Positions 1 through 59,645 of a stretch of DNA of 64,000 nucleotides are shown here, piece by piece. The position numbers and the translations under genes are program-made. Source of the DNA: Kiritimatiellales bacterium (GTDB lineage: Bacteria; Verrucomicrobiota; Kiritimatiellia; Kiritimatiellales; Pontiellaceae); assembly GCA_003246265.1 (NCBI GenBank), contig QKAU01000056.1:1-64000 (forward strand), given 5' to 3'. The notes under the pieces were generated by a model. That model did no database searches, was not told the origin of the DNA, and saw only the letters and a list, made by a program, of their open reading frames with translations. Each line of letters starts with the position of its first letter. Position 1 is the stretch's first letter.

Positions 1-760
1 CACCCGAGTCCGGAAAGCCGGCTACGACGGGGTGGAACTCGCCCTCCCGCTCCACGACGCCCGGAGAACCGCGCATATCGTCGATACCCTGCAGGAGTTC
101 GGGCTCAAATTGATCGGCCAACACTGGGAAACAACCGATCCCGACATCGACAACCACATCGGGCGCTACCGGAAGCGGATCGAGTGGCAGGCCGCGGCCA
201 ACCCGCTGTTCGTCAATTCGCAGACCGGGCTCGACTGGTTCCCCTTCGAAGCGAACCAGCGCATCATCGATGCGGCCCGGGCGGTTTCCGAAAAGACGGG
301 CGTTCGCATCGTACACGAGACCCACCGGGGAAAACTCACCTTCTGCGCCGCCCAGACCCGCCGCTTCCTGGAAGCCAACCCCGAGATGCGCCTGGCTGCC
401 GACTTCTCGCACTGGTGCAACGTCTCCGAATCGCTCCTGGCCGACCAGCATGAATCCGTATCGTCTGCGATTGCCCGGGCCGACCACATCCACGCCCGCG
501 TCGGGCATCCGGAAGGTCCGCAGATTTCAGACCCGCGCGCCCCCGAATGGCAGGAGGCGCTCCATGCCCACCTCGCATGGTGGGACTCCATCGTCGAGAC
601 CCGGAGGGGCGATGGAACCGGGCTGCTCACCATCACGGCCGAGTTCGGACCGCCGACCTACATGCCGACGCTGCCCTACACCCGGCAGCCTGTCTCCGAC
701 CAGTGGGAAATCAACGTCCACATGATGAACCTTCTGAAGGCGCGCTACGCCCAACCATGA
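1..760 (+). CDS. Sugar phosphate isomerase/epimerase-like TIM-barrel protein (5' end outside window)
   Basis: The reading frame is open from the first bases of the window, so the start codon lies upstream; about 252 residues are present. The product looks like an AP-endonuclease-2/xylose-isomerase-like TIM barrel, a fold that isomerises or epimerises sugars using a divalent metal held by Glu, Asp, His and Glu. Matching candidates are visible in order: the Glu of HETHRG, the Asp of AADFSHW, the His of HIHARVGH and the Glu of TAEFGPP. An internal GTG at position 32 could be mistaken for the start, but the in-frame residues before it (KAGYDGVE) match the usual N-terminal strand of the family. 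The stop codon is 17 bases before the desaturase start, which suggests co-transcription. The substrate is unknown; the context suggests a modified sugar. Confidence 0.8.
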   Translation, partial: TRVRKAGYDGVELALPLHDARRTAHIVDTLQEFGLKLIGQHWETTDPDIDNHIGRYRKRIEWQAAANPLFVNSQTGLDWFPFEANQRIIDAARAVSEKTGVRIVHETHRGKLTFCAAQTRRFLEANPEMRLAADFSHWCNVSESLLADQHESVSSAIARADHIHARVGHPEGPQISDPRAPEWQEALHAHLAWWDSIVETRRGDGTGLLTITAEFGPPTYMPTLPYTRQPVSDQWEINVHMMNLLKARYAQP

Positions 761-777
761 CCGAGAGGAGATGCCCC

Positions 778-1788
778 ATGACCCGGCTAGTTGAAAGAAA
801 AGTGGAATGGTACCGGACCCCTATCGACAAGGAGGTGAAGAAGGAACTGATGCAGCGCAGCGACCTGCGCGGCTTCCTCCAGATCATCCCGCAGTTGCTG
901 CTATCGGTCGCTACCGCAACCTTCGTCGTCTATGCCTATCACACGCTCGCCTGGCCGTTCCTGATCGTGGCCCTGTTCATCCACGGCACCGGCTTCACCT
1001 TCGTTGGCGAGCACGCCGCCATCCACGAGCTGTCGCACGGCACGGTGTTCAAGACCAAGGGACTGAACGAGTTCTTCCTCCGGCTTTGCGGATTCATCAC
1101 CTGGAAGAATGTCATCCTCTACCGGGAAAGCCACATCCGGCACCATATGGCCACGGTGCACGGCGACCAGGATCTCGAGGTGCCCCTGCCCTACCATCTC
1201 ACCCTGTGGAACTGGGTACAGTACTACACCTTCGATTTTTCCCGTTTCAAGGCCTGCGCCTGGATGATCATCCGCCACAGCTTCGGCATCCTGTCCGGCG
1301 AGTGGGAACACTTCCTGTTCCCCGAATCCGACCCCAAGGCGCGCAAACGGCTTTTCAACTATGCGCGCTTCGTGCTGGCCGGGCAGCTGCTGATCGCCGC
1401 GGCCATCGTCTATTTCAAGGCATGGATCTTCCTGGCGATCTTCACCTTCCCCTTCTACGCCACCTGGCTCGCATGGCTCGTCACGATCCCCCAGCATGCC
1501 GGACTGACGCCCAACAGCAACGATTTCCGCATCTGCTGCCGGTCGGTCAAGGTGGATCCCTTCACCCTCTTCATGCATTGGAAGATGGACTACCACGTGG
1601 AGCACCACATGCACGCGGGCGTCCCCTTCTACAACCTGCCGAAGCTCCGGCAGGCGATCGGTTACGACCTGCCGCCCATGGACCCCTTCATGAAGACCTG
1701 GAAGGAAATCCGCAGCACCCTGAAGCGGCAGAAGAGCGATCCCTCCTACTGCCACGTGCCGCAGCTCCCTAGCGCCGCGCAAAGCTAG
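778..1788 (+). CDS. Membrane di-iron fatty-acid-desaturase-family oxygenase (MocD-like candidate)
   Basis: A 336-residue membrane protein with the three histidine boxes that bind two irons in this superfamily: H83-ELS-H87, H119-IR-HH123 and H273-VE-HH277, plus an extra QHAG at 238-241. Hydrophobic segments at about 35-75 and 195-235 frame the boxes. The family uses O2 and electrons from a ferredoxin to desaturate, hydroxylate or O-demethylate. The start is the second of two ATGs (778), preceded by GAGAGGAG. It follows a sugar isomerase and precedes a second desaturase-Rieske fusion, and no lipid-synthesis genes lie nearby, so I favour a sugar-directed oxygenase like MocD of rhizopine breakdown over a lipid desaturase. 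That assignment is inference. Its 3' end overlaps the convergent AraC gene by 20 bases. Confidence 0.8.
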   Translation: MTRLVERKVEWYRTPIDKEVKKELMQRSDLRGFLQIIPQLLLSVATATFVVYAYHTLAWPFLIVALFIHGTGFTFVGEHAAIHELSHGTVFKTKGLNEFFLRLCGFITWKNVILYRESHIRHHMATVHGDQDLEVPLPYHLTLWNWVQYYTFDFSRFKACAWMIIRHSFGILSGEWEHFLFPESDPKARKRLFNYARFVLAGQLLIAAAIVYFKAWIFLAIFTFPFYATWLAWLVTIPQHAGLTPNSNDFRICCRSVKVDPFTLFMHWKMDYHVEHHMHAGVPFYNLPKLRQAIGYDLPPMDPFMKTWKEIRSTLKRQKSDPSYCHVPQLPSAAQS

Positions 1789-2575
1789 AGGGCGCAACGC
1801 CCCGGTGCTTTTTGTAGGCGCGCGAGAAATAGAGCGGATCCTCGAAGCCGCACGACGCGGCGATGCGCCCCATGCGCCAGTCGGGATGGGCTTGCATCAG
1901 GCGGTCGGCAAGCTCCAGCCGCTGGAACAACTGGTAGCGTTTGAAGCCGATGCCCATCATCGAAGAGAAGAGGTGCGAAAGGCGCGATGGACTCAGCCCG
2001 ACAAACCGTGCAGCCCCGGACAGCGTGAGCACCTCGGCCGGATCGGTGCGCATTCTTTCGATGAGCGGATTGAGCTGGTCGAAGTCACGCCGCCCGACGA
2101 GGGCATGGTTGGCGATGTGGTGGATCAGCACTTCGAACATGCTAAGCAGGTCGTCGACCTTTTCACGCGTGAACTCGGGCAGTTGTTCCACCGCCGCCTG
2201 CTCCCTTGGATTGCGGATTTCCACCTTGTTCCCGGCAAGGCGGAACTGGCCGATCATGGCGTATCCGATCGGCACGCCGCCGACCAGCACCGGCACCACC
2301 GCCTCGCACAATCCCGCATGGCATTGGTAGAAATGGACTCCGCCCTTTTCCAATGAAGCCTTGCGCCCCCCGTCGTCGTCCGCCAGGCAGGCCGCGTTGA
2401 AGGCCCCCGCGCGGCGTCGCATGGCGCAATAGCCGCAGATGCTGCGGTTCTTGCCGATGCACAACTCCTCCCCATCCATCGAAAAGAAGGCGATGCGCAC
2501 CTCGGTCAGCGAGGTGAAGTGGTCGAGCAGGTTGAGCATTTCGCGGCTGAAGATGTACTCCATGTTTCCGATCAT
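1769..2575 (-). CDS. AraC-family regulator with N-terminal PocR sensory domain
   Basis: The 268-residue protein starts with a cysteine-rich PocR-type domain (about 5-165; Cys clusters ICGYC, ACLADD and QCHAGLC), a domain predicted to bind small organic ligands and possibly a metal. A double helix-turn-helix of the AraC type fills about 170-268 (LTLSGAARFVGLSPSRLSHL, then IAASCGFEDPLYFSRAYKK). Two ATGs are in frame at 2581 and 2575. I chose 2575 because AAAGGA lies 8 bases before it but only 1-2 bases before 2581. It is divergent from the UroD-like gene, with a shared intergenic region carrying a 21-bp-spaced direct repeat that could be its operator. PocR/AraC proteins often control neighbouring catabolic genes. 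The ligand is unknown. Confidence 0.88.
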   Translation of the reverse strand: MIGNMEYIFSREMLNLLDHFTSLTEVRIAFFSMDGEELCIGKNRSICGYCAMRRRAGAFNAACLADDDGGRKASLEKGGVHFYQCHAGLCEAVVPVLVGGVPIGYAMIGQFRLAGNKVEIRNPREQAAVEQLPEFTREKVDDLLSMFEVLIHHIANHALVGRRDFDQLNPLIERMRTDPAEVLTLSGAARFVGLSPSRLSHLFSSMMGIGFKRYQLFQRLELADRLMQAHPDWRMGRIAASCGFEDPLYFSRAYKKHRGVAPSSFARR

Positions 2576-2593
2576 GGACATCCTTTATCACGA

Positions 2594-2620
2594 TATAGCT
2601 AAATTGTCCATGTTTATAGC
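2594..2620 (+). promoter_or_regulatory. Direct repeat TATAGC(t)AAAT with 21-bp spacing, candidate AraC operator
   Basis: TATAGCTAAAT begins at 2594 and TATAGCAAAT at 2615, exactly two helical turns apart in the same orientation. AraC-type proteins typically bind such half-site pairs. The repeat lies between the divergent AraC/PocR gene and the UroD-like gene, upstream of a possible -10 (TACCTT, 2655-2660) of the latter. Regulator assignment is inferred from position. Confidence 0.5.
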
Positions 2621-2691
2621 AAATGCCTCTATGGCCAGGTCCACCGATCCGTCCTACCTTGTTGCGCGGGTGTGAACGCAGGAGAGCAATC

Positions 2692-3744
2692 ATGACGAAA
2701 CGCGAAGTGGTACGAATGGTCCTCAACGGCGAAAAGCCGCCCTATGTCCCGTGGTCCTATAAATTCACGATGGAGGCCGAACATGCGCTCAAGGAACACC
2801 TCGGATGCGAGGACCTCGAACGGACCGTCGGCAACCATATCGTCCGCGTCGGCAGCGATATCGGGTTTTTCGAGGATATCGGCAACGACCGGTTGCGCGA
2901 CGTGTTTGGCGTCGTCTGGGACCGCAGCGTCGACAAGGACATCGGCGTGGTGGAAAACTGCCTGATTCCGGAGCCGACCATGGAGGGATTCCGCTTCCCC
3001 GACCCGCTCGACCACCGCTTCTTCGACAACATCGAACCCAAGCTGGCGGAGTACGCCGACTGTTTCCGCGTCTTTGAACTGGGCTTCTCCCTTTATGAGC
3101 GCGCCTGGACCCTGCGCGGCATGGAGAACCTGATGATCGACATGATCGAAGAGCCGGAGTTCGTGCACGACCTGCTGGCGGCCATCGCCGACTACAACCT
3201 CGCCCAGGTGGAAGAGGCCCTCAAGTACGACATCGACGCCGTCTACTTCGGCGACGACTGGGGCCAGCAGCATGGGCTCATCATGGGTCCGGACCGGTGG
3301 CGGGAGTTCATCCTGCCGCAGCTCCGGCGGATGTACGGCAAGGTGCGCGCAGCCGGCAGGTTCGTGATGATCCACTCCTGCGGCGATGTCGACGAATTGT
3401 TCGACGACCTGGTCGACGCGGGCCTGAACAGCTTCAATCCGTTCCAGCCCGAGGTGATGGACATCCACGCCATCCTGCCGGCCTATCGTGGCCGCCTCGC
3501 CTTCCACGGCGGGTTGAGCATGCAGAAGACCCTGCCGTTCGGCACGGTCGAGGAGGTCCGCAGGGAGTCGCGCGACCTGCTTCGGCTGGGAGCCGACGGC
3601 GGCTACATCTTTTCGCCTTCGCACTCGGTGGAGAGCGACACGACCGTCGAAAACATGGTTGCCTTCATCGAAGAGGCCTTCGCGCAGGAGGGATACCAGG
3701 CGCTTCATCCCGGGGATGGACTGAAGCTGCCCGCAACGGCGTAG
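2692..3744 (+). CDS. Uroporphyrinogen-decarboxylase-superfamily (UroD-like) methyltransferase
   Basis: A 350-residue protein of the UroD fold, with a start at 2692 preceded by AGGAGAG. In this superfamily true HemE makes coproporphyrinogen, but most members beside regulators and catabolic genes are cobalamin-dependent methyltransferases such as MtaA. Here HSCG (about residue 225) and the SPSHS segment near the C-terminus occupy positions where MtaA-type enzymes bind zinc with His and Cys. The PRP/GRQAGR-type N-terminal substrate motif of HemE is not seen; the N-terminus reads PPYVPWSYK. No corrinoid protein or other haem gene is adjacent. It sits between a PocR/AraC gene and a desaturase-Rieske gene, suggesting handling of methyl groups from a methylated carbon source. 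That role is inferred. Confidence 0.75.
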   Translation: MTKREVVRMVLNGEKPPYVPWSYKFTMEAEHALKEHLGCEDLERTVGNHIVRVGSDIGFFEDIGNDRLRDVFGVVWDRSVDKDIGVVENCLIPEPTMEGFRFPDPLDHRFFDNIEPKLAEYADCFRVFELGFSLYERAWTLRGMENLMIDMIEEPEFVHDLLAAIADYNLAQVEEALKYDIDAVYFGDDWGQQHGLIMGPDRWREFILPQLRRMYGKVRAAGRFVMIHSCGDVDELFDDLVDAGLNSFNPFQPEVMDIHAILPAYRGRLAFHGGLSMQKTLPFGTVEEVRRESRDLLRLGADGGYIFSPSHSVESDTTVENMVAFIEEAFAQEGYQALHPGDGLKLPATA

Positions 3745-3803
3745 GGCCATAGGGGGTGCGGTGGCGCAGCCAGGGGAAAAGGCTGTTCAACAGGAGACCT
3801 ACC

Positions 3804-5219
3804 ATGACAAACCCCCTAGACCTGATCATTGAAGAAGAGTGGTACAAGCCGGAGATCGACCGGAGCGTGTTCAAGGCGCTCATGCAGAAGGACGACGTCC
3901 ACGGCATCGCCAACACGGCGCTGTGGATCGGATCGTTGCTGGCCAGCGGATACCTCGCCTGGCTGGCGATTCCCCACGGCCTGTTTTTTTCCGTACCGGC
4001 GTTCCTGCTCTACGGCATCTTCTACTGCGCCTGCGACGCGCGCTGGCACGAGAGCTCGCACCACACGGTCTTCAAGACGCACTGGATGAACGTCGCGCTG
4101 AACTTCCTCTCCACCGCCATGCAGCAGCGCGACATCGTTTTCACGGCTTGGTCGCATGCGCGGCACCACTCCTACACGATTATCACGGAGGTCGACCCCG
4201 AGATCACGGTGACCCGCCCGCCCAAATTCTGGCCGCACTTCCTCGATTTCTTCAGCCTCAAGGAGGCCACCTACTACTATCCCATCCTCATTCTCCACAG
4301 CCTCGGCATCCCGAGCAAGGCGGCCAGGGAGTTCGTGCCCGAGGAGGAGTACGGGAAGATGTTCTGGTGGGCACGCGCCTCGTTCGCCCTGAACGCCGTG
4401 CCGGTGGGCTTCGCCATCGCCTGCCATACGTGGCTGCCGCTGCTCTACTTCATCGGGCCGAAGTTCTACGCCAACTTCGTCCAGCGCGCCTTCATCCTCG
4501 CGCAGCACGCGGGAATGGATGAAAACGTCTGGGACCACCGGGCCAATTCCCGGACCATCAGGGTGAACCCGCTCCTGGGCTTCCTCTACATGAACATGCA
4601 GTACCACATCGAGCACCACATGCATCCCCTGATGCCCTTCCATGCGCTGCCCAAGTTCCATGAGCGCGTAAAGGACCAGCTCCCGGAACCCTACAAGGGG
4701 CTTTGGGCGGTCTACAGGGAGATGCTTCCCGCACTGGGGAAGCAGGCCAAGGACACGAGCTACTGCATCCAGCGGGCGGTGCACGGCCAGGTGCCCCCCC
4801 GCCGCGCCGTGCGCCGCAAGGACAGGGCCGCCGAAGAAATCGCTACCGGGCACGCCGCGCAGTGCGAAACCGCGGGGCGGGAACTGGTGTGGCACCCCGT
4901 ACTCGGCGCCGATGAACTGGGGGTCAACGACTCGATGGATGTGGTGGTCGATGATGCGCACTACGCCGTATACCAGCTTGAAGCCGGAGACTACCGGGCC
5001 ACCGAAGGGGTCTGCACCCACGAATTCGCGCTGCTGGCCGACGGGGTGCTCCAGGATGGCTGCATCTCCTGCCCCAAGCACAACGCAAAGTACGACATCT
5101 GCTCCGGCAAGGTGCTTTCGCGCCCCGGCAAGCGCGACCTGCTGACCTTCCCCGTGAAGCTGGAGCGCGGCAAGCTCTTCCTCGGACTGGCCCGGAAAGA
5201 CGAGCCGCACTTGCCCTGA
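3804..5219 (+). CDS. Desaturase-family di-iron oxygenase fused to a C-terminal Rieske ferredoxin domain
   Basis: A 471-residue fusion. Residues about 1-330 form a membrane desaturase domain with histidine boxes H82-ESS-HH87, H118-AR-HH122 and QYHIEHH near 270; an extra QHAG matches the neighbouring desaturase. After a basic linker (about 330-360) comes a Rieske-type [2Fe-2S] domain with C404-x-H406 and C423-xx-H426. Together these would supply oxygen activation and its immediate electron donor in one chain. In rhizopine catabolism the same two activities are separate proteins, MocD and MocE, which with a reductase (MocF) remove an O-methyl group. No reductase is found in the window. The start at 3804 follows CAGGAGA. 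O-demethylation of a sugar is my favoured but unproven reading; lipid or carotenoid hydroxylation is the alternative. Confidence 0.82.
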   Translation: MTNPLDLIIEEEWYKPEIDRSVFKALMQKDDVHGIANTALWIGSLLASGYLAWLAIPHGLFFSVPAFLLYGIFYCACDARWHESSHHTVFKTHWMNVALNFLSTAMQQRDIVFTAWSHARHHSYTIITEVDPEITVTRPPKFWPHFLDFFSLKEATYYYPILILHSLGIPSKAAREFVPEEEYGKMFWWARASFALNAVPVGFAIACHTWLPLLYFIGPKFYANFVQRAFILAQHAGMDENVWDHRANSRTIRVNPLLGFLYMNMQYHIEHHMHPLMPFHALPKFHERVKDQLPEPYKGLWAVYREMLPALGKQAKDTSYCIQRAVHGQVPPRRAVRRKDRAAEEIATGHAAQCETAGRELVWHPVLGADELGVNDSMDVVVDDAHYAVYQLEAGDYRATEGVCTHEFALLADGVLQDGCISCPKHNAKYDICSGKVLSRPGKRDLLTFPVKLERGKLFLGLARKDEPHLP

Positions 5220-5301
5220 CGCGCGCACCTTGCGGTCGGCTGGGAAACCGGCGACGGACAACACTCGCCATCCCATGTTGCATGGGGTATTCTGGTCCGC
5301 C

Positions 5302-6450
5302 ATGAGTACCCTTCCCGAAACCTACGAGGTCAGCGTCCTGGTCAACACCTCCCTGCAATGGGGACGGGACATCGTTTCGGGCGCCTTGGACTACGCCTAT
5401 GAAATGGGTCCATGGTACGTCAGGGTCTACCCCAACCACCCCGCCAACGCCATGCAGCTTCCCGCCGGATTCCGCGCGGATGGCGTGATTGCCAATGTCA
5501 ACTCTCCCGAGATGGCACAGGCCCTCGCGGACTATGGCGCCCCGGTCGTCAACGTGGCCGACCATACGGTCGAGGGCATCGCCGCCCCGAGCATACGCAC
5601 CGACGACAATGTTTCGACGCGGATGGCGGTCGACCACTTTATCGAGCGCGGATTCCGGAGGCTCGCCTTCGTGGGCCCGCGACACACCCCGAACCCGATA
5701 TGGTACGCGAAGGTCTTCCGTCAAACGGCGGAAAAGGAGGGACTGCCCCACGCGGAATTCACCGTGCATGACAACTACCGGGACCAGATCGACGAGCTGG
5801 TTCCCTGGCTCAGGTCGCTGCCGAAGCCCATCGGGATCCTGGTGTGGGGACTGGGCGTGGCCCAGGTGGTGGTGGATTGCTGCATGCGGGCGGATATCCC
5901 CGTCCCGCACGATGTGGCGGTCCTATGCGGAAGCTATGACGAAGTACTGTCGCACGCCTGCTTCCCCGCCCTCTCAGGCATCCTCATCCCCACCCGGAAG
6001 ATCGGCCATACCGCCGCCCAGACCCTGCACCGCATCATGAGGGGGGAAAAGATCCCCGCGAAAACAACCTACATTCCCCCGCTCGGCATCCGCGAGCACC
6101 TTTCCACCGACACGATCAAGGTCGAGGATGGCCACATGCTCAAGGCCATCAAGTTTATCCGGGAACACGCCTATGAGCCATTCCTGATCGACGACATCCT
6201 GCGCCATGTCCCGATGACCCGCCGCTCCCTCGAACGCCGGTTCCGCCAAACCTTCGGCCACTCCATCGGCGACGAGATCAAGCGCCTGCGGATCGGCAAG
6301 GCCCGCCAGCTCCTGGTCCAGACCGACCTGCACATGCAGGAGATCGCCGAAGCCTGCGGCTATGCCACCTACAACCATCTCACTTCCGTCTTCAAAAAGA
6401 CGACCGGCATGAGCCCGCGCGACTACCGCAAGCAGCAAGGCGGTTCCTAG
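5302..6450 (+). CDS. XylR-like regulator: LacI-type sugar-binding domain with C-terminal AraC HTH
   Basis: The protein (382 residues from 5302) lacks an N-terminal DNA-binding domain. Residues about 8-265 resemble a periplasmic-binding/LacI-type sensor (for example GADGVI-like and RRLAFVGPRH segments), and about 270-380 are an AraC-type double helix-turn-helix ending in a typical SPRDYRK. This is the architecture of XylR of xylose catabolism and of many PVC glycan loci. It probably senses a monosaccharide released by the adjacent fucosidase/GH43 set and activates those genes. The ATG at 5302 is favoured because homologues usually start just before the sensor's first strand (YEVSVLV); an ATG at 5275 is possible. 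No strong ribosome-binding site is visible for either. Confidence 0.85.
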   Translation: MSTLPETYEVSVLVNTSLQWGRDIVSGALDYAYEMGPWYVRVYPNHPANAMQLPAGFRADGVIANVNSPEMAQALADYGAPVVNVADHTVEGIAAPSIRTDDNVSTRMAVDHFIERGFRRLAFVGPRHTPNPIWYAKVFRQTAEKEGLPHAEFTVHDNYRDQIDELVPWLRSLPKPIGILVWGLGVAQVVVDCCMRADIPVPHDVAVLCGSYDEVLSHACFPALSGILIPTRKIGHTAAQTLHRIMRGEKIPAKTTYIPPLGIREHLSTDTIKVEDGHMLKAIKFIREHAYEPFLIDDILRHVPMTRRSLERRFRQTFGHSIGDEIKRLRIGKARQLLVQTDLHMQEIAEACGYATYNHLTSVFKKTTGMSPRDYRKQQGGS

Positions 6451-6650
6451 ACCGGACCAGCGCCGCGGAAGCGATCCGGAGGAAGCCAGTGGCATCCTTT
6501 CCGGGTACCGTTCTTGAACGCAGGCAGCCCCACCCCTGGCCGGGGCTTGTACGTTCCGCACTGGCCTTTAGGATGGGCCGGGCAGGCTTGCATAGCCCCC
6601 GCATCCGGTGGGATGCTGTACGGCGTAATCATGCGAAGGAGGAAGGCGAG

Positions 6651-8132
6651 ATGCGGAGATGCATTGCACAGGGGCTGGTCGCGGCGACAGCCATGGTGGT
6701 GGCAACAGGCTGGGCGGAGGACTTCCGATACCAGCCCGACTGGGACTCCATCCGGAGCCGCTACGAGGTGCCGGCCTGGTTCCGCGATGCCAAGTTCGGC
6801 ATCTTCATCCATTGGGGCCCCTATGCCGTCCCGGCCTACATGTCGGAAAAGTATCCGCCCGGCATCTACGATCCCAACTGGAACAAGGGCGGCATGAACG
6901 CGTACGCCTACCACCGCAAGCACTATGGCGATCCGTCGGAATTCGGCTACAAGGACTTCATCCCGATGTTCAAGGCCGAAAGGTTCGATGCCGCGGCATG
7001 GGCCCGGCTCTTCAAGGATGCCGGCGCCCGCTACGTCGTCCCCGTGGCCGAACACCACGACGGATTCGCCATGTACCATTCGCACCATACCCGCTGGAAC
7101 GTGGTCGACATGGGGCCGAAGAAGGACACCCTGCGCCTGCTCGCCGACGCCTGCCGCGCCGAAGGACTGAAATTCGGCGCCTCCTCGCACTTCGCCCTCA
7201 ACCGCATCTACTACAGGACCGACGATCCGGATTGGGACACCAACGATCCGCAATATGCCGACCTCTACTGGAAGCCCGTCGACAAGGACTCCCCGCCGGA
7301 ACCGGAGTTTCTCGACCTGTGGTGGCGGCGAACCACCGAAATCATCGACCAGTACGAGCCCGACCTGCTCTGGTTCGACTACGGCCTCGACAAGCCCGGC
7401 TGGGAGCCGGTCCACAAGAGGATTCTCGCCTACTACTACAACAAGGGCCTCGACTGGGGGAAAGAGGTGGTCTTCCAGGACAAGAACATGAGGCACGAAT
7501 CCTTCCCCGAAGACCTCATCGTCCTCGACATCGAACGCGGCCGCATGGCGGACATCAACCCCCGCCCGTGGCAGACGGACACCTCCGTCGGGAAAATCTC
7601 GTGGGGCTACATCGAAAACGAGGACTACAAGAGTTCCGACTACCTCGTCGACGAACTCATCGACATCGTCAGCAAGAACGGCTGCCTGCTGCTCAACATC
7701 GGACCGAAGGCCGACGGCACCATCCCGGATGAAGCCCAGGCAATCCTCCGCGACATCGGCGCATGGCTCCGGGTCAACGGCGAGGCGGTCTACGGTACGC
7801 GCCCATGGAAGATCTTCGGCGAAGGCCCAACCAAGGTGGCGACGGGCCACCATTCCGAAAAGGAAAACACGGACCATGTTTCGGCCGACATCCGCTTCAC
7901 GACGCGGGACGACGTGCTCTACGCCATCGCGCTCGCCTGGCCGAAGGACGGCCGGTTCAACATCCGCTCGCTGGCCAGGGGCAACCCGCACGAATCCCGC
8001 CCGGTCAAGGCGGTGGAATTCATCAGCGGTCGAAGTCCCGTCCGCTGGAAGCAGACGGCGGACGGGTTGGCATTGTCGGTCGAGGGAAAACCTCCCTGCG
8101 AAGCCGCCTATGTTTTCAGGATCCGTTTCTGA
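6651..8132 (+). CDS. Secreted GH29 alpha-L-fucosidase
   Basis: A 493-residue enzyme with a signal peptide (1-22, cleavage near GWA-ED). The GH29 catalytic TIM barrel is recognised by FGIFIHWGPYAVPAY, the EHHDGFAMY segment and LLWFDYGLD, whose Asp243 fits the position of the catalytic nucleophile in retaining fucosidases. A C-terminal beta domain follows (about 370-493). It would cleave terminal alpha-L-fucose from glycans in the periplasm or outside the cell. The start at 6651 is preceded by GGAGGAAGG. It heads the row of degradative genes after the XylR-like regulator, followed by two sulfatases and two GH43 enzymes, consistent with breakdown of a sulfated fucose-containing polysaccharide. 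The acid/base residue cannot be assigned with certainty by eye. Confidence 0.93.
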   Translation: MRRCIAQGLVAATAMVVATGWAEDFRYQPDWDSIRSRYEVPAWFRDAKFGIFIHWGPYAVPAYMSEKYPPGIYDPNWNKGGMNAYAYHRKHYGDPSEFGYKDFIPMFKAERFDAAAWARLFKDAGARYVVPVAEHHDGFAMYHSHHTRWNVVDMGPKKDTLRLLADACRAEGLKFGASSHFALNRIYYRTDDPDWDTNDPQYADLYWKPVDKDSPPEPEFLDLWWRRTTEIIDQYEPDLLWFDYGLDKPGWEPVHKRILAYYYNKGLDWGKEVVFQDKNMRHESFPEDLIVLDIERGRMADINPRPWQTDTSVGKISWGYIENEDYKSSDYLVDELIDIVSKNGCLLLNIGPKADGTIPDEAQAILRDIGAWLRVNGEAVYGTRPWKIFGEGPTKVATGHHSEKENTDHVSADIRFTTRDDVLYAIALAWPKDGRFNIRSLARGNPHESRPVKAVEFISGRSPVRWKQTADGLALSVEGKPPCEAAYVFRIRF

Positions 8133-8167
8133 CGGCGGCAGGCGCACCGCCCATCCTGTCCGTACTC

Positions 8168-8197
8168 CATATGTTTTTCACGCAATCGCATATTACG
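8168..8197 (+). promoter_or_regulatory. Conserved 30-bp element upstream of the first sulfatase
   Basis: Positions 8168-8197 match 12502-12531, upstream of the second sulfatase, at 22 of 30 bases when aligned without gaps. Shared blocks include CATAT, a T-run ending in C, CG.AAT and CAT.T. It lies 50 bases or more before the start codon, just upstream of a candidate -10 (TACGTT, 8216-8221). A binding site for the XylR-like regulator is a reasonable inference. Confidence 0.45.
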
Positions 8198-8246
8198 GGT
8201 GGGCATGGATCTGCTACGTTTGCTGCACCATCAACGGAGCCCAGTC

Positions 8247-9770
8247 ATGAAACTCATGGTAATCCTCGCCCTTGCCGCATCGGGTATCGCCCTCGCCGCC
8301 CCGGCGGCCGAACAGCCGAACATCATCTGGATCATGGCCGAAGACATGGGGCCCGACCTCGCCTGCTACGGCATGGCCGGCGTGAAGACGCCGAACCTCG
8401 ACCGAATGGCCCGGAAGGGAATGAAATTCACCCGGGCCTACTGCGCCAACCCGATCTGCTCGCCCAGCCGCTCCTCCATGATGGTCGGTGTGCACCAGAC
8501 CGTCATCAACGCCCAGCACCACCGCAGCAACCGCGACATTCCGCTGATGGCCCCCTACAAACCCTTCACCTACTGGCTGCGCCAGGCCGGCTACACCTGC
8601 ATCCTCGGCAGCGACCTGGTGATGGGCAGGGGACGCAAGATCGACTGCAACTTCAAGTACGAGGAGACCGGCCCCTATGACGGGGTTTCGCAGTTCGGCC
8701 TCTTCGACAAGCTCGACACCTTCACGAGGGACGACCAGCCCTTCTTCAGCCAAATCCAATGCGTGGTCACGCACCGCGGCGACTGGTGGAACGAGGTGCG
8801 CCGGGAATCGAAGCATCCGGTTTCCGTCGATGCCATCGAGCTGCCGCCCTGGTTCGCCGACACGCCGGAGATCCGCTACGACTGGGCGGCCTATTGCGAC
8901 ACGATCGAATACATGGACGACGAGGTCGGACAGATCCTGAAGCGGGTGGATGAGATGGGGATCGCAACCAACACCTACGTGGTCTTCATCGCCGACAACG
9001 GCCGGTGCAACCTGCGCGGCAAGGGCTACCTGCAGGACACCGGCATCCATGTGCCGATGATCGTCCGCGGCCCCGGCATCCAGGCTGGTACCGTGGTGGA
9101 AGATCTCGTCTGCATGACCGACATCACCGCCACCATCCTCGCTCTCGCCGGCGCCGAATTGCCGGACTACCTCGACGGACATCCGGTGTTCGGGATCGCG
9201 AACCCGCAGTACCGCGAATATGTCCGCTCCGCGCGCGACATCTGGGACGAGATCGACGAATGCTCGCGCAGCATCACCACCAGGCGGTTCGCCTATATCA
9301 AGAACCACATGCCCGAAGTGCCGTGGGACGCCCACCAGGCCTATCTCGACCTGAACCGCCCGGCCATCCACGTCATGCGCCGCCTCAAGGCGGAGGGGAA
9401 GCTCTCTGCCGACCAGCTGGTCTTCATGGCCGAATCCAAGCCGCCCGAAGAGCTCTACGACCTGGAGAAGGATCCCTTCCAGATGAACAATCTTGCCGGG
9501 AATCCGGAATATGCGGAAGTGCTGGAAAAGATGCGCGGCCTTGAAGCACAATGGCAGTCCGGACATCCCGACATGGGACTTGCCGACCTGGGGAAGCGCA
9601 TCCCGGAGATGACCAGGGCCTGGGCCGCCCAGACCGAAACGGGCGTTAAGGAGCAGGCTCCGGAACTATGGGCCAGGCTCGAGGCCGGCGAGCTGATGGA
9701 GACCCATCAGTGGAAGAAATACCGTGCCGACCAGCGCAGGCCGGAAAAAAAGGCTGCTACTGGAAAATAG
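8247..9770 (+). CDS. Exported S1-family sulfatase with CSPSR formylglycine motif
   Basis: A 507-residue protein with a signal peptide (1-21). The sulfatase core has PNIIWIMAEDMG (first metal-binding acidic pair) and C71-SPSR75, the sequence in which Cys is oxidised to formylglycine by a maturase. FIADNGR supplies the later Asp-Asn metal ligands, and LYDLEKDPFQMNNLA closes the family domain. It would hydrolyse a sulfate ester on a sugar. No formylglycine-generating enzyme or anaerobic maturase is in the window, so one must be elsewhere. It lies 114 bases after the fucosidase and carries an upstream element shared with the second sulfatase. Sulfate position and sugar cannot be deduced; its subfamily is unassigned. 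Confidence 0.93.
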   Translation: MKLMVILALAASGIALAAPAAEQPNIIWIMAEDMGPDLACYGMAGVKTPNLDRMARKGMKFTRAYCANPICSPSRSSMMVGVHQTVINAQHHRSNRDIPLMAPYKPFTYWLRQAGYTCILGSDLVMGRGRKIDCNFKYEETGPYDGVSQFGLFDKLDTFTRDDQPFFSQIQCVVTHRGDWWNEVRRESKHPVSVDAIELPPWFADTPEIRYDWAAYCDTIEYMDDEVGQILKRVDEMGIATNTYVVFIADNGRCNLRGKGYLQDTGIHVPMIVRGPGIQAGTVVEDLVCMTDITATILALAGAELPDYLDGHPVFGIANPQYREYVRSARDIWDEIDECSRSITTRRFAYIKNHMPEVPWDAHQAYLDLNRPAIHVMRRLKAEGKLSADQLVFMAESKPPEELYDLEKDPFQMNNLAGNPEYAEVLEKMRGLEAQWQSGHPDMGLADLGKRIPEMTRAWAAQTETGVKEQAPELWARLEAGELMETHQWKKYRADQRRPEKKAATGK

Positions 9771-9836
9771 CGGACACCACCGGCCCCGCTGCGGAAATTC
9801 CAAGGAACCTGCATTCCCTTGGACCGCGTTCCTTGC

Positions 9837-9842
9837 TATCCT
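9837..9842 (+). promoter_or_regulatory. Candidate extended -10 (TGC-TATCCT) before the GH43 pair
   Basis: TATCCT preceded by TGC lies about 40 bases before the start of the first GH43 gene. Similar TAnnnT hexamers precede several other genes in this window. No good -35 is visible. Confidence 0.35.
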
Positions 9843-9880
9843 CCCGGCAGACTGATCCTATTGTAGCCGAGGGGGGGGCG

Positions 9881-10837
9881 ATGAAGGCCAGAGACATCCT
9901 GCTGATCACGGCGCTGGCGGCGAATGCGCCGGCCCGGAATCCGTTCATCACGCATATCTACACGGCCGACCCTTCGGCCCGGGTGTTCGGCGACGTGCTC
10001 TACGTCTACCCGAGTCACGACCGCGACCATGCCCAGTGGTGGGACATGGAGGACTACCACGTCTTCAGCACCACTAACATGGTGCACTGGACGGATCACG
10101 GCAGGGCGCTGGACATCGCCGACATCCCATGGGCGCAAAAGCATGCCTGGGCCCCCGACTGCATGGAGCGCGATGGCAGATACTACTTCTACTTCCCCAC
10201 TGACCAGGCCCATATCGGCGTTGCGGTCGGAGGCACGCCGTGGGGCCCGTTCAAGGATGCCCTGGGGAAACCGCTGCTCTCCAAGCATTCGGAAGGCGTG
10301 GTGTGCCGTCGCGATTTCATCGATCCCTGCGTATTCATCGACAACGACGGGCAGGCCTACCTCTTCGCCGGGCAGCTCGACCTCAATGCCGTCAAGCTTG
10401 GCCGCGACATGGTTTCGATCGATGGTCCGGTGCGGCAGATCGAAGGGCTCGACCATTTCTTCGAAGCCGCATGGATCCATGTGCGTGAAGGAAGATATTA
10501 CCTTTCCTATTCCGGGCAGGGAAGGATCCTCTATGCCGTGTCGGACCAGGTGCTGGGCCCCTACGAGTTCAAGGGGACGATCCTGGGCAAGGTCAATAGC
10601 GGCACGAACCACCATTCCATCGTAAAGTACAAGGGGCGCTGGTACCTCTTCTACCACACCGCCGACCTCTCGATGCAGCGGAATCCCAAGGGCTCCCCGG
10701 AGGCGAAGTACAGCCAGTGGCGCCGGTCGATCTGCGTGGACGAACTTGCCTACCACGAGGACGGGAGCATCCAGGAAGTGGTGCCGACATTGGAAGGCGT
10801 TGCTCCCGCCGCCGCGCCAGCGGATCTCGCACCATGA
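9881..10837 (+). CDS. GH43-family glycoside hydrolase, single domain
   Basis: A 318-residue five-bladed beta-propeller glycosidase. The GH43 acid triad is visible: Asp in IYTADPSARVF (general base), Asp in RRDFIDPCVFID (pKa modulator) and Glu in HFFEAAWIH (general acid). The family removes arabinofuranose, xylose or galactose units. The N-terminus (MKARDILLITALAANAPAR) could be a weak signal peptide, but cleavage is unclear. The start at 9881 is preceded by GAGGGGGGGGCG, where a run of eight Gs acts as the ribosome-binding site. Its stop overlaps the start of the next GH43 gene as ATGA, so the two are translationally coupled. Substrate is not predictable by eye. Confidence 0.87.
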   Translation: MKARDILLITALAANAPARNPFITHIYTADPSARVFGDVLYVYPSHDRDHAQWWDMEDYHVFSTTNMVHWTDHGRALDIADIPWAQKHAWAPDCMERDGRYYFYFPTDQAHIGVAVGGTPWGPFKDALGKPLLSKHSEGVVCRRDFIDPCVFIDNDGQAYLFAGQLDLNAVKLGRDMVSIDGPVRQIEGLDHFFEAAWIHVREGRYYLSYSGQGRILYAVSDQVLGPYEFKGTILGKVNSGTNHHSIVKYKGRWYLFYHTADLSMQRNPKGSPEAKYSQWRRSICVDELAYHEDGSIQEVVPTLEGVAPAAAPADLAP

Positions 10838-12480
10838 AGATGCTCCTCGCCGCATTGATGCTCGCCGCAGCCGGTGCCTTCGGCACCTTCGCCGGAACCT
10901 ATACCAATCCAATCGTCACGGCCGACTTTTCTGATCCCGACGTGGTCCGGGTCGGTGACGACTTCTACATGACCGCCTCAAGCTTCAACATGGTGCCGGG
11001 GCTGCCCATCCTGCACTCGCGCAACCTGGTTGACTGGCGGCTGGTCGGGCATGGGCTTCGTCACCTTCCACCCATTCCTGAACCCACCCCGCGGCGGAGC
11101 GGGAACGAACTGGACTACGACCTCCCCCGCCCCGGTTGCGGCGTCTATGCCCCCAGCATCCGCTTTCACGACGGCTGGTTCTGGATATTCTGGGGAGATC
11201 CCGATGCCGGCATCTACATGACCAGGGCGCGCAACGCCGCCGGACCTTGGTCCGAGCCGCATCTGGTCCATCCCGGGCAGGGCCTGATCGACACCACGCC
11301 TTTGTGGGACGATACCGCGGGCAAGGCCTATCTCGCCCACGCATACGCCCACTCGCGCAGCGGGATCAACGGGCGGATCGTGGTGCATGAGATGGCCTGG
11401 GACGGATCCCGGCTCATCGGAGCCCCCGCAACGGTGTTCGATGCTTCCAAGCCCGAGCGGTTCCCCTCCGACCGCCATCATTCCGTGATCGAAGGAGCCA
11501 AGTTCATGCAAAGGGATGGGTGGTACTATCTGCTCTGTCCCGCCGGTGGCGTCGCGTTCGGGTGGCAGACCGCCCTGCGCGCCAGAAGCCCCATGGGCCC
11601 CTACGAAATCCGGACGATCTGCGCCCGGGGGAGCACGGATGTCAACGGCCCCCATCAAGGAGCCCTAGTGGACACGCCTCAAGGCAGCTGGTGGTTCGTC
11701 CATTTTCAGGATGTCGGTACGCTGGGCCGGATTACCTGGTTGCAGCCGGCCCGGTGGGAAGATGCATGGCCCGTCATTGGCGAGGATCCGGATGGCGATG
11801 GGACTGGACAACCCGTCCATCTGGCTCCACTTCCGGTCGACCTGCGCGAGCCCCTGTCGCCAACGCTCGGTTCCGACAGCTTCAACGGACCGGAAATCGG
11901 CCTGCAGTGGCAATGGCCTGCAAACCCGAAACCCGGCTACAGCCTGCTTGAGGATGGGATACTCCGACTGCCCGCCCATCCGGTGCCGGACGGCCGTCTG
12001 GAATGCGCACCCCACGTGCTCACCCAGATGTTTCCCGGCTACTGCTTTGCCGCAACCGCGAAAGTGGAACTCGATTCCACGAATCCCTCGGTATATGGAG
12101 GTCTGGCCGCCATGGGCCGGACGTGCTCGGATATCGCCATCCACAGGCTTGGCGAAGGGCTCGAGGCCCGTGTCCGTATCAAAGGTGCTCCCACAGCCAT
12201 CGCCTCGCTGCCGGCCGGTTCCATCTGGCTCAGGTTGGAAGCCGAAGGCGAACTCCCGCTTCCCTACTCCGGCAAGAATGGGCAAATCGCCTGCCGCTTC
12301 GCCTACAGCACCAACGGGAGGAATTTTGTGCCACTGGGCGAAACCTTCCATGCCAGGGCGGGAACATGGATCGGGGCGCGCGTCGGCCTTTTCTGCTCCG
12401 GCGCGGACCCGCAAGCTGGCAGTCTCAAGGTAGACGATCTGGATATGGCTGTGGAGGATCGTACAGGAAGGGGCCTATAG
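10834..12480 (+). CDS. Secreted GH43 glycosidase with C-terminal concanavalin-like domain
   Basis: A 548-residue protein with a signal peptide (1-20). Residues about 22-320 form a GH43 propeller: Asp in DFSDPDVV (base), Asp in LIDTTPLWDD and Glu in HSVIEGAKF (acid). About 345-540 resemble the beta-sandwich of the beta-xylosidase C-terminal domain (FNGPEIGLQWQW onward). This two-domain form is typical of beta-xylosidases and alpha-L-arabinofuranosidases related to GH43 subfamily 12. Its start overlaps the upstream GH43 stop (ATGA). The signal peptide suggests that it acts in the periplasm or outside, perhaps before the shorter partner. Exact sugar specificity is open. Confidence 0.9.
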   Translation: MKMLLAALMLAAAGAFGTFAGTYTNPIVTADFSDPDVVRVGDDFYMTASSFNMVPGLPILHSRNLVDWRLVGHGLRHLPPIPEPTPRRSGNELDYDLPRPGCGVYAPSIRFHDGWFWIFWGDPDAGIYMTRARNAAGPWSEPHLVHPGQGLIDTTPLWDDTAGKAYLAHAYAHSRSGINGRIVVHEMAWDGSRLIGAPATVFDASKPERFPSDRHHSVIEGAKFMQRDGWYYLLCPAGGVAFGWQTALRARSPMGPYEIRTICARGSTDVNGPHQGALVDTPQGSWWFVHFQDVGTLGRITWLQPARWEDAWPVIGEDPDGDGTGQPVHLAPLPVDLREPLSPTLGSDSFNGPEIGLQWQWPANPKPGYSLLEDGILRLPAHPVPDGRLECAPHVLTQMFPGYCFAATAKVELDSTNPSVYGGLAAMGRTCSDIAIHRLGEGLEARVRIKGAPTAIASLPAGSIWLRLEAEGELPLPYSGKNGQIACRFAYSTNGRNFVPLGETFHARAGTWIGARVGLFCSGADPQAGSLKVDDLDMAVEDRTGRGL

Positions 12481-12501
12481 ACGGGTCGCCTGACGGATTT
12501 A

Positions 12502-12531
12502 CATATTTTTTTCGCGGAATTCCATGTAGCG
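12502..12531 (+). promoter_or_regulatory. Conserved 30-bp element upstream of the second sulfatase
   Basis: This segment aligns without gaps to 8168-8197 at 22 of 30 positions, and both lie ahead of sulfatase genes. It includes an EcoRI-like palindrome GGAATTCC at 12516-12523 not fully kept in the other copy. A similar GCGGAAATTCCA occurs at 9790-9801 before the GH43 pair. Possible operator of the locus regulator. Confidence 0.45.
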
Positions 12532-12596
12532 CCCGAGCACCGAAAAGCCTTCAATGCAAAGGCGTCCCGGAAGCACTGGCGCAGGAGAATGAAGCC

Positions 12597-14051
12597 ATGA
12601 TTAGAAGATGTGCAGCTTGGACAGCCGCATTGCTCAGCGGCCTGGCTTGCGTGGCGGGCAACGCCGCTGTTGGCGGGCGCGCTGGAAACCCCAACCTCAT
12701 CCTGTTTGTTGCCGACGACCATGGCACCGATGCCCTTGGGTGCTACGGGAATCCGGTCATCCAGACACCGAACCTGGACCGCCTCGCCGCGGAAGGCGTG
12801 CGCTTTACCCGCGCCTACTGCACCAGCGCCAGCTGTGCCGCCAGCCGGTCGGTGATCCTTACCGGCCTCTATGGCCACGCGACCGGCTCGTACGGGCACA
12901 CCCACGACTACCATCACTTCAGCACCTACGACACCGTAAAGTCGCTCCCCGTCCTCCTCGAGGCGGCGGGCTACCATACCGCACGCATCGGCAAGTACCA
13001 CCTTGCACCCGACTCGGTCTACCACTTCCAAACCGTCCTGCAGGCCGACCCGCGCAGCACGATTGAAATGGCCGACGCCTGCGCAGGCGTGCTCGGACAG
13101 GACAAGCCCTTCTTCCTCTACTTCTGCACCGACGATCCCCACAGAGGCCACCCCTTCACCCCCGATCCGTGGAATGCACCGAATCCGTTCGGCAACAAGC
13201 CCGAACCCTATCCGGGCGAAAAGCAGGTCAAGTACGACCCGGGAGAGGTCGTCGTTCCACCATTCCTTCCCGACACCCGCGAGTGCCGGGAAGAGCTGGC
13301 CCAGTACTACCAATCCGTTTCCCGCATAGACCAGGGCTTTGGCCGGCTGATGCACCTTCTGGAAAAGTCCGGCAAGACGGACAACACCGTCGTCATCTAC
13401 ATCTCCGACAACGGCATCGCCTTTCCCGGCGCCAAGACCACCCTCTACGAACCGGGAATCCGTCTCCCCTGCATCGTCAAGGATCCACGCACTTCCTTGA
13501 ACGGACACGTCAACGACTGCATGGTCTCGTGGGTCGACCTGGCCCCCACCATCCTTGATCTCGCCGGCGTCGAATTCGACCCCAAGGCATTCCAGGGCCG
13601 TTCCTTCCGGCTTGTTCTCGACAAGGTCTTCGTCGACGGCTGGGATACCATCCACGCGTCGCACACGTTCCACGAAATCACCATGTACTACCCCATGCGC
13701 GTTGTCCGCCAAGGCGACCTCAAGCTCATCTGGAACATAGCGTACCAGCTGCCCTACCCCTTCGCTTCCGACCTGTGGGCCGCCTCCACCTGGCAAAGCA
13801 TCTACCGCGGCAAGGGGGAATGGTTTGGGAAGCGGAAGGTCCAGGACTACCTCCACCATCCGGAATTCGAACTCTACGACCTTGCTGCGGACCCGGATGA
13901 AACCCGCAATCTTGCGCTGGATGAGAAGTATGCCGAGACGCTGGACCACATGAAAAGGCAGCTCAAGGACTTCCAGCTCGAAACCAAGGATCCGTGGCAG
14001 ATCATGTGGAGCCACGAATCCGAGGTACAGGGAACTGGCGTAAACCTGTAG
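12597..14051 (+). CDS. Exported S1-family sulfatase with CAASR formylglycine motif
   Basis: A 484-residue protein with a signal peptide (1-24). NLILFVADDHGTD carries the first metal ligands, and the modification motif is C80-AASR84, the alanine-containing variant accepted by formylglycine-forming enzymes and common in heparan N-sulfatase-like S1 proteins. YISDNG provides the later metal ligands, and FELYDLAADPDETRNLA marks the C-terminal subdomain. The start at 12597 has CAGGAGAA upstream. It differs clearly from the CSPSR sulfatase 2 kb upstream, so the two probably attack different sulfate positions. The maturase is not encoded here. Resemblance to N-sulfoglucosamine sulfohydrolases is by motif only. 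Confidence 0.93.
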   Translation: MIRRCAAWTAALLSGLACVAGNAAVGGRAGNPNLILFVADDHGTDALGCYGNPVIQTPNLDRLAAEGVRFTRAYCTSASCAASRSVILTGLYGHATGSYGHTHDYHHFSTYDTVKSLPVLLEAAGYHTARIGKYHLAPDSVYHFQTVLQADPRSTIEMADACAGVLGQDKPFFLYFCTDDPHRGHPFTPDPWNAPNPFGNKPEPYPGEKQVKYDPGEVVVPPFLPDTRECREELAQYYQSVSRIDQGFGRLMHLLEKSGKTDNTVVIYISDNGIAFPGAKTTLYEPGIRLPCIVKDPRTSLNGHVNDCMVSWVDLAPTILDLAGVEFDPKAFQGRSFRLVLDKVFVDGWDTIHASHTFHEITMYYPMRVVRQGDLKLIWNIAYQLPYPFASDLWAASTWQSIYRGKGEWFGKRKVQDYLHHPEFELYDLAADPDETRNLALDEKYAETLDHMKRQLKDFQLETKDPWQIMWSHESEVQGTGVNL

Positions 14052-24359: not shown

Positions 24360-24369
24360 GGCCTTCTCC

Positions 24370-24915
24370 TCAATCATACTTCAACAGTTCGTACGGCAGT
24401 TCGATGGGCTGGCCGGAGAGCAGCGCGGTGAGCGCGGCCCACAGCGTATCGGCCGAGGGCGGGCAGCCCGGGAGGCAGTAGTCGATCTTCACCACCTCGT
24501 GCGCGGGGTAGACCTTGTCGAGCAGGAGCGGAATTTCCGGATCGTCCGGCACAATGCCCTGCGGATTGTAGACGGTGGGTCCGCTGCGATAGGCCTCGTC
24601 GATGCACTCCTCCAGCGGGATGTTGTTGCGCATGGCGGGGATGCCCCCCATCGTGGCGCAGTCGCCGAACGAGATCAGGACGTCGCAGTTCGCGCGGAAC
24701 TCTTCGAGCACATGCACGTTCTCCTCGTTGCAGCAGCCGCCTTCGACCAGCCCGATGGCGCAGCGCTGCGAGATGTGCTTGATGTCGTCGACCGGCGAAC
24801 GGTCGAACTCGACCAGGTCGATGAGCTGCAGGATGCGGTCGTCGATGTCGAGCAGCGACATGTGGCAACCGAAGCATCCGGCCAGCGACGTGGTGGCAAC
24901 CCTTGGCTTGCTCAT
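24370..24915 (-). CDS. hoxY: NAD-reducing [NiFe] hydrogenase small subunit
   Basis: A 181-residue small subunit carrying the proximal [4Fe-4S] cluster: C14-FG-C17, GGCCNEEN and DYCLPGCPPSAD supply the cysteines. It is short, as expected for group 3d enzymes that lack the medial and distal clusters of membrane uptake hydrogenases, and it has no Tat signal, so the enzyme is cytoplasmic. It overlaps hoxU by 4 bases (ATGA), indicating translational coupling, and is 10 bases before the hoxH start. Confidence 0.93.
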   Translation of the reverse strand: MSKPRVATTSLAGCFGCHMSLLDIDDRILQLIDLVEFDRSPVDDIKHISQRCAIGLVEGGCCNEENVHVLEEFRANCDVLISFGDCATMGGIPAMRNNIPLEECIDEAYRSGPTVYNPQGIVPDDPEIPLLLDKVYPAHEVVKIDYCLPGCPPSADTLWAALTALLSGQPIELPYELLKYD

Positions 24916-25619: not shown

Positions 25620-25628
25620 GGACTCCTC

Positions 25629-27443: not shown

Positions 27444-27500
27444 CGAAGCCTCCTTCCATCCCCCGCCGGCGTTGTGGAATACCGCGGGAAATACGGTATA

Positions 27501-27528
27501 AAAATATCGATTTAGGCCCGCATGGCAA
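27501..27528 (-). promoter_or_regulatory. Promoter of the hox operon (TTGCCA-N16-TATTTT)
   Basis: On the minus strand TTGCCA (27528-27523) and TATTTT (27506-27501) are 16 bp apart and would give a leader of about 50 bases before hoxF. No NarL- or FNR-type site is evident beside it. Confidence 0.5.
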
Positions 27529-27592
27529 GCAAACACCGTAGTCCTGTACGGATTTTTGCTCTTTATACAAGATCCCGGTTTGTTTTTGGATT

Positions 27593-27607
27593 GCACTGGG
27601 CCAGTGC
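27593..27607. repeat. Perfect 7-bp palindrome GCACTGG-G-CCAGTGC
   Basis: It lies 11 bases before the first possible start of the TlyA-type gene, in the hoxF-tlyA intergenic region. It could be an operator, or a hairpin over the ribosome-binding region, since no ribosome-binding site is seen there. Confidence 0.4.
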
Positions 27608-27618
27608 CTGCCGCGTTA

Positions 27619-55913: not shown

Positions 55914-55962
55914 AATGCTGAAATGGGGGTGCGACTGTGTTTTAAGGGTGTCCAGACATACC

Positions 55963-59636: not shown

Positions 59637-59645
59637 GAGCATGCC

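Follow-up and report, generated by a model that had tools for sequence, protein, structure and literature searches.

A desaturase-fold oxygenase fused to a Rieske ferredoxin domain in the Pontiella lineage: a two-domain form within a MocDE(F)-like family

A single uninterrupted frame of 471 codons at positions 3804..5219 (+ strand) of the Kiritimatiellales contig QKAU01000056.1 encodes a fused protein, here called DE, that consists of a desaturase-fold oxygenase domain followed by a Rieske [2Fe-2S] domain and is a two-domain member of a widespread, poorly studied MocDE(F)-like family. The frame lies near the beginning of the window, i.e., the whole stretch of 64,000 nucleotides that was analyzed, which comes from a seafloor sugar-degrading bacterium of the Pontiella lineage; Pontiella is a genus described as strictly anaerobic (PMC7356697, PMC10880615). 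Taken as a whole, DE is likely to be a membrane diiron MocD-like monooxygenase with a fused MocE-like Rieske donor, an external reductase, and a probable carbohydrate-derived substrate. The parts of this explanation differ in strength: DE is very likely to be an oxygenase with a built-in Rieske donor, a carbohydrate-type substrate is somewhat favored, and O-demethylation as such, suggested by analogy, is a tentative assignment of the reaction.

The start of the frame was placed at ATG 3804 in preference to the alternative mechanical start GTG 3756 because an AGGAG ribosome-binding site is found 7 nt upstream of the former. The N-terminal part (residues 1-325, positions 3804..4778, + strand, like all features of the DE gene listed here) is a MocD-like oxygenase domain with predicted membrane helices, assigned from Pfam, AlphaFold, and Foldseek results; it matches the FA_desaturase family (PF00487) over residues 64-301 (E=1.1e-30, 107.7 bits versus a cut-off of 29.7). 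It contains three His boxes, H82-ESS-H86 (4047..4061), H118-AR-H121-H122 (4155..4169), and H268-IE-H271-H272 (4605..4619). After a variable linker of low predicted confidence (residues 326-360, 4779..4883) comes a Rieske domain similar to those of MocE and NdoA (residues 361-465, 4884..5198), which matches PF00355 over residues 363-450 (E=2.4e-15, 56.6 bits versus a cut-off of 20.3) and PDB entry 2qpz (5.7e-16). Its ligands, C404-T-H406 (5013..5021) and C423-PK-H426 (5070..5081), are spaced as CxH-X16-CxxH, in line with the family pattern CxH-X(15-17)-CxxH. These domain assignments are far above chance and bear out the first-pass annotation, which had recognized three complete His boxes and a complete Rieske site in one chain of 471 residues. 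The 11 His residues (those of the three boxes plus H165, H235, and H245) and the 4 Rieske ligands are identical in 60 of the 60 aligned fused relatives. The alpha subunit of a Rieske oxygenase combines an N-terminal Rieske domain with a C-terminal mononuclear-iron catalytic domain; DE instead has its Rieske domain at the C terminus and an FA_desaturase domain as its catalytic part. The frame stops after the Rieske domain, so that the C-terminal NqrF-like reductase domain is absent from DE, as it is from all its close orthologs.

The AlphaFold model of the whole chain, made with 60 relatives, has a pLDDT of 87.9 and a pTM of 0.85, with low confidence limited to the N terminus and the linker (pLDDT <50 at residues 341-355); the pLDDT of the oxygenase domain is 89.2. 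In Foldseek searches, the matches to the C-terminal part were Rieske ferredoxins from the naphthalene and carbazole dioxygenase systems (2qpz, TMt 0.95). These proteins (NdoA, 2qpz; CarAc) and BphA3 share their fold and ligands with the C-terminal domain of DE but are soluble separate ferredoxins that feed Rieske oxygenases and not desaturase-fold enzymes. The oxygenase domain alone retrieved a Chlamydomonas FtsHi motor complex subunit, followed by FtAlkB (8sbb; TMq 0.59, E 0.016). The closest solved fold to this domain, ahead of AlkB, is that of this subunit of the chloroplast Ycf2/Orf2971-FtsHi motor complex (PDB 8xks_K, 8xqw_M). AlkB from Fontimonas thermophila is a natural fusion to its electron donor, FtAlkB-AlkG (PMC10113152). 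Like DE, it is a membrane oxygenase of similar fold fused to a one-electron donor, but the donor is a rubredoxin, the substrate is an alkane, and the sequence similarity to DE is marginal (profile match to AlkB 8f6t, E 0.02). By analogy, FtAlkB-AlkG would be a good precedent for the working mode of DE.

The first-pass annotation had named two findings that would speak against such a fusion, a frameshift revealing two separate genes and a loss of the Rieske ligands in close homologs. Neither was seen, as the orthologs keep the fusion and every ligand. The same fusion is present in independent assemblies, namely, four other genomes of the genus (including that of the isolate Pontiella sulfatireligans F21, L057, with 78% identity to DE) and a metagenome-assembled genome (MAG), which excludes a frameshift or an assembly artifact. 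DE was also compared with four Pontiella-lineage orthologs (G226, P. sulfatireligans F21, P. desulfatans F1, and a Kiritimatiellales MAG): dN was ∼0.10 in the desaturase part, 0.16 to 0.21 in the Rieske part, and 0.60 to 0.87 in the linker, and dS was >1 or saturated in both domains. Judging by these values, both domains are under purifying selection and the linker between them is fast-changing. The idea that DE is a frameshift-joined pair of genes or a decaying pseudogene, which could draw on the genome G297, where both parts are in different frames, is hardly credible given the recurrence of the fusion, the purifying selection on both parts, and the retention of all ligands. The locus in question (L157, G297:C1:4023530-4024845) belongs to a single-contig genome and has its desaturase and Rieske parts in different, overlapping frames. 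This break is probably an assembly indel, since other copies in the same genome also have in-frame stops.

In tblastn searches of plasmid records, the whole of DE aligned collinearly (38-43% identity, ∼90-97% of the query) to adjacent separate genes for a MocD-like protein and a MocE-family ferredoxin in Rhizobium, Burkholderia, and others. These genes, annotated as “fatty acid desaturase family protein” and “MocE family 2Fe-2S type ferredoxin” and followed by a gene for an FAD-dependent reductase, look like homologs of MocD, MocE, and MocF, judging from the alignments. Bahar and coworkers are said to have found in 1998 that MocDEF takes the O-methyl group off 3-O-methyl-scyllo-inosamine. MocDEF is presented as a ferredoxin oxygenase set for the catabolism of this rhizopine in two later articles (Bahar et al. 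1998, cited via PMC5132102 and PMC10107442). The MocDEF loci of rhizobia and Burkholderia have the same domain order as DE, and in many of them a xylose-isomerase-like TIM barrel is encoded nearby; however, they consist of separate genes with an adjoining Pyr_redox-type reductase, MocF, and a LacI regulator, whereas DE is one fused chain that has a PocR-AraC regulator and a URO-D partner and no adjacent reductase. DE thus differs from an operon of separate mocD, mocE, and mocF genes in that D and E are fused and the F neighbor is absent. The top NCBIfam model for its Rieske part is TIGR02377 (MocE family), but the score of 60 bits is below the curated cut-off of 136.15, so this part is referred to as MocE-like and not as a MocE family member. 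When the genome of Rhizobium pisi DSM 30132 was inspected for a true rhizopine moc cluster, it revealed only a MocD locus of the LacI/TIM-barrel type, around which no mocA, mocB, mocC, or mocR was recognized by eye; the rhizobial LacI/TIM-barrel MocDEF homologs may therefore serve another O-methyl polyol. Among the sequences covered, none was recognized as the bona fide MocD of rhizopine catabolism, which counts against the MocD-based explanation of DE. The neighbors of several of these rhizobial loci (L053, L055, L084, and L113) are genes for cobalamin biosynthesis, a KPHMT-like gene, and nadABC.

Full-length matches to DE within a single open frame were found in 23 of the 289 sampled genomes of the phylum. 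Except for two from the window's own genus, these frames have ∼700-890 residues, and the surplus residues form an NqrF-like FAD/NAD reductase domain. The best 80 loci from 84,980 species genomes comprised 38 with separate genes, 37 with three-domain proteins, and 5 with two-domain proteins, which are counts within this best-match list and not frequencies. Among these loci, separate genes were found in Proteobacteria and Paenibacillaceae, and the three-domain form was found in Verrucomicrobiota, Acidobacteria, Bacteroidota, and single MAGs elsewhere; by this sequence survey, the three-domain protein is the usual form in Verrucomicrobiota, Acidobacteria, and Bacteroidota. The first-pass view that oxygenase and donor are usually separate proteins is correct for the neighboring genes of Proteobacteria and Paenibacillaceae but has to be qualified for this phylum, where, at 23 of 289 genomes, fusions are not rare. 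The search by domain architecture and taxonomic spread that it proposed does recover the fusion in this order, but mostly with an added reductase (in Verrucomicrobiota, Acidobacteria, and Bacteroidota). Likewise, one chain does hold both the oxygenase and the [2Fe-2S] donor, but a “self-contained” oxygenase “needing only a reductase” turns out to be a less complete member of the family, because nearly all fusions in the phylum also carry the NqrF-like reductase domain. The three-domain proteins (∼760 aa; loci within L005-L025, L038-L049, and L059-L136) have the desaturase and Rieske domains in the same order as DE, show 34-40% identity to it, and share all the ligands; they add a C-terminal NAD-binding reductase domain, which is missing from the window clade, placed outside theirs. 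No published description of a desaturase-Rieske-NqrF fusion was found in the open-access literature (subscription papers were outside the search), and the three-domain members appear to be undescribed in the searchable open literature.

In the oxygenase-domain tree, the window clade (four rows, support 100/100) was placed outside the clade into which all three-domain proteins and the majority of the MocD-like proteins from Proteobacteria fall. In AU tests of oxygenase-domain topologies on a 41-row set, a topology uniting the window and three-domain clades was rejected (p=0.0037), and so, more strongly, was one that also included L034, the second type of fusion in Pontiella (p=2e-5). The L034-type fusions cluster with the Rieske-less oxygenases L037 and L050; a single clade of the window clade and the L034-type fusions was neither shown nor rejected (p=0.25). 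On this phylogenetic evidence, the joining of oxygenase and Rieske domains probably occurred more than once, and a separate origin of the Pontiella two-domain fusion is probable because the window clade falls outside the three-domain clade (AU p=0.0037); support for multiple fusions is moderate and not strong because the branches are long. The same placement argues against the alternative that DE descends from a three-domain oxygenase-Rieske-NqrF reductase protein and was shortened by loss of the reductase. Three domains are seen in most fused relatives of the phylum, and the two-domain proteins L067, L099, and L118 nest in the three-domain clade and resemble such losses. For DE itself, this origin is unlikely given its position outside the clade of three-domain and proteobacterial MocD proteins and the two rejected constraints, which the long branches keep from being final.

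In the proposed electron path, a separate NAD(P)H reductase would reduce the tethered Rieske cluster, which, carried on a linker predicted to be flexible, would pass electrons singly to the diiron site. The added reductase of the fused relatives is a natural completion of this path and is counted in favor of the Rieske-donor model. As a point against the model, no reductase gene was found in the island around DE (window positions 1-14051), and neither a clear MocF nor a second MocE-like ferredoxin was found in the genome, whose sole other Rieske gene is located ∼3 kb from a heme-copper oxidase gene. The best candidates for the reductase are encoded on contig 10 (a rubredoxin-Pyr_redox_2 protein with 36% identity to the MocF homolog over ∼315 residues) and on contig 22 (NqrF, with 50% identity to the reductase domain found in the three-domain proteins). 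Rieske-less paralogs may borrow the donor of the fusion or use another one. One such protein is encoded 2 kb upstream of the fusion (772..1788, + strand; Pfam 4.8e-28; 30% identity to DE); it is a second desaturase-fold oxygenase, belongs to the same superfamily as DE, and has no Rieske domain. It has its own overlapping TIM-barrel gene, and its relatives in the genus, 70-75% identical, are found in different contexts.

The island begins with a gene, cut by the contig start (2..760, + strand), for a xylose-isomerase-like TIM-barrel protein (AP_endonuc_2, 1.1e-4, below the curated cut-off; profile match 4e-76). Between the second oxygenase and DE are the divergent gene for an AraC-type regulator with a PocR domain (1769..2581, - strand; PocR 8.9e-24, HTH_18) and, directly upstream of DE, that for a URO-D/MtaA-like protein (2692..3744, + strand; Pfam URO-D 9.7e-24; MtaA PDB 4ay7, 9e-6). 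Downstream, all on the + strand and assigned from Pfam matches, come a XylR-like AraC regulator with a periplasmic-binding-protein domain (5230..6450), a GH29 alpha-L-fucosidase (6489..8132; 2e-106), a sulfatase (8199..9770; 1.4e-37), two GH43 glycosidases with uncertain starts (9668-10837 and 10717-12480; 2.9e-36 and 2e-56), and a second sulfatase (12003..14051; 3.1e-52), the true start of which is probably near 12.6 kb, as the domain begins at residue 230. Three of these genes, those for the PocR-AraC regulator (73-76% identity), the URO-D protein (87-89%), and the fusion itself (∼82% in the desaturase part and 72-78% in the Rieske part), adjoin in every locus with a DE ortholog. The polysaccharide-related (CAZyme) neighbors differ among close ortholog loci, where the PocR and URO-D genes are the only conserved ones. 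The URO-D/MtaA-like partner is better conserved than the oxygenase. Compared with the zinc site of MtaA, it keeps the HxC motif (HSCG versus HICG), has His in place of the third Cys ligand in the alignment, and scores well below the MtaA/CmuA subfamily cut-offs; URO-D genes also flank other members from Pontiella and Bacteroidales (L099, L157, and L160-L162).

The PocR-AraC regulator would switch the DE gene on, and the diiron site would activate O2 and use one O atom to oxygenate a C-H bond in a small substrate of carbohydrate origin. Were this carbon part of an O-methyl group, collapse of the resulting hemiacetal would release the sugar and formaldehyde, i.e., the reaction would be an O-demethylation; the URO-D/MtaA-like partner would take as its own substrate either the same compound or the C1 unit set free. 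An oxidative demethylation of an algal sugar has a precedent in the P450 of marine porphyran degraders, which converts 6-O-methyl-D-galactose to the sugar and formaldehyde (PMC10033563). This heme enzyme differs from DE in its fold and is not homologous to it. A more speculative and rather improbable proposal is that the PocR, URO-D/MtaA-like, and DE proteins form an undescribed catabolic module of Pontiella, in which an O-demethylase or hydroxylase working at trace O2 passes its C1 product or substrate to a relative of zinc/corrinoid-type methyltransferases; if true, the module would couple an oxygenase to a methyl-transfer protein of the kind found in anaerobes.

A carbohydrate-derived substrate is suggested by the gene neighborhoods of the family. 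The island around DE contains the GH29, the two GH43, the two sulfatase, and the xylose-isomerase-like TIM-barrel genes; for the Pontiella clade, the sugar link is circumstantial because the CAZyme neighbors are not conserved in close orthologs. Among the best 80 loci, a TIM barrel is encoded at most 300 bp from 16 of the 37 three-domain and 3 of the 5 two-domain genes; for 21 of the 38 separate operons, one is encoded within 2.5 kb (counts taken without a random-placement control). This neighbor has been noted before at rhizobial mocDEF, and an inositol-type substrate was inferred from it (PMC3538637). One specific candidate, 2-O-methyl-L-fucose released by GH139 enzymes, was considered and rejected: by published counts, P. 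sulfatireligans F21 has five GH139 genes and P. desulfatans F1 has no GH139 2-O-methylfucosidases, yet F1 carries an ortholog of DE, so the 2-O-methylfucose link is not supported. A true fatty-acyl desaturase or hydroxylase, in which the fused Rieske donor replaces cytochrome b5 or ferredoxin, would agree with the Pfam family name, the three standard His boxes, the predicted membrane helices, and a weak NCBIfam similarity to DesB, at 38 bits far from the cut-off of 500 bits. Such lipid desaturation is quite unlikely because the close relatives of DE are MocD-like pairs and not acyl-lipid desaturases and because, according to the published description of Pontiella, its major fatty acids (i-C12:0, i-C14:0, C18:0, and i-C18:0; PMC7356697) include no unsaturated ones; moreover, the neighbors are catabolic genes and regulators, with no lipid genes among them.

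The use of O2 is the most curious point about DE, and one that counts against the proposed function, because the Pontiella isolates are described as obligate anaerobes that do not grow in oxic medium (PMC7356697, PMC10880615). The window organism is placed in the same genus by genome-level assignment; the anaerobic description is that of the isolates. They grow only in reduced zones and have cytochrome bd and cbb3 oxidases, as well as putatively O2-dependent sulfatase-maturation enzymes (PMC7356697, PMC6388578, PMC10880615); genes for cytochrome bd and a heme-copper oxidase are also present in the genome to which the window belongs. In such a host, a catabolic enzyme that uses O2 and has its own regulator is unexpected but, given the sulfatase-maturation enzymes, not unique. 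Elsewhere in the window, a NiFe hydrogenase large subunit with HoxU- and HoxF/E-like subunits of the bidirectional type (22929-27629) fits a fermentative host, and a GltD-like flavoprotein with a ferredoxin domain is encoded together with KorA/KorB-like 2-oxoacid:ferredoxin oxidoreductase subunits (55915-60698). Diiron oxygenases require a substrate for efficient O2 turnover, which speaks against removal of trace O2 by uncoupled oxygen reduction as the main role of DE in this anaerobic lineage, with any substrate being incidental. Pontiella cultures do widen the reduced zone in oxygen-gradient tubes (PMC7356697), and the genome retains both types of oxidase; however, these oxidases could already do the job, and every ortholog is accompanied by a sensor-type regulator dedicated to it and by a URO-D partner, as in a substrate-specific pathway, which makes O2 removal a very unlikely main role.

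Fusion of a MocD-like oxygenase to its Rieske donor has thus probably occurred more than once, and the complete single-chain version (oxygenase, Rieske domain, and reductase) is common in Verrucomicrobiota. Such fusions would be handy, self-sufficient catalysts. They would also offer a clean model of how electrons enter membrane diiron sites, for which donor docking is difficult to investigate. If the link to carbohydrates is true, they would provide a non-P450 route to demethylate algal or plant sugars. Their occurrence in organisms described as obligate anaerobes offers a case in which O2-dependent catabolism at trace oxygen can be tested.
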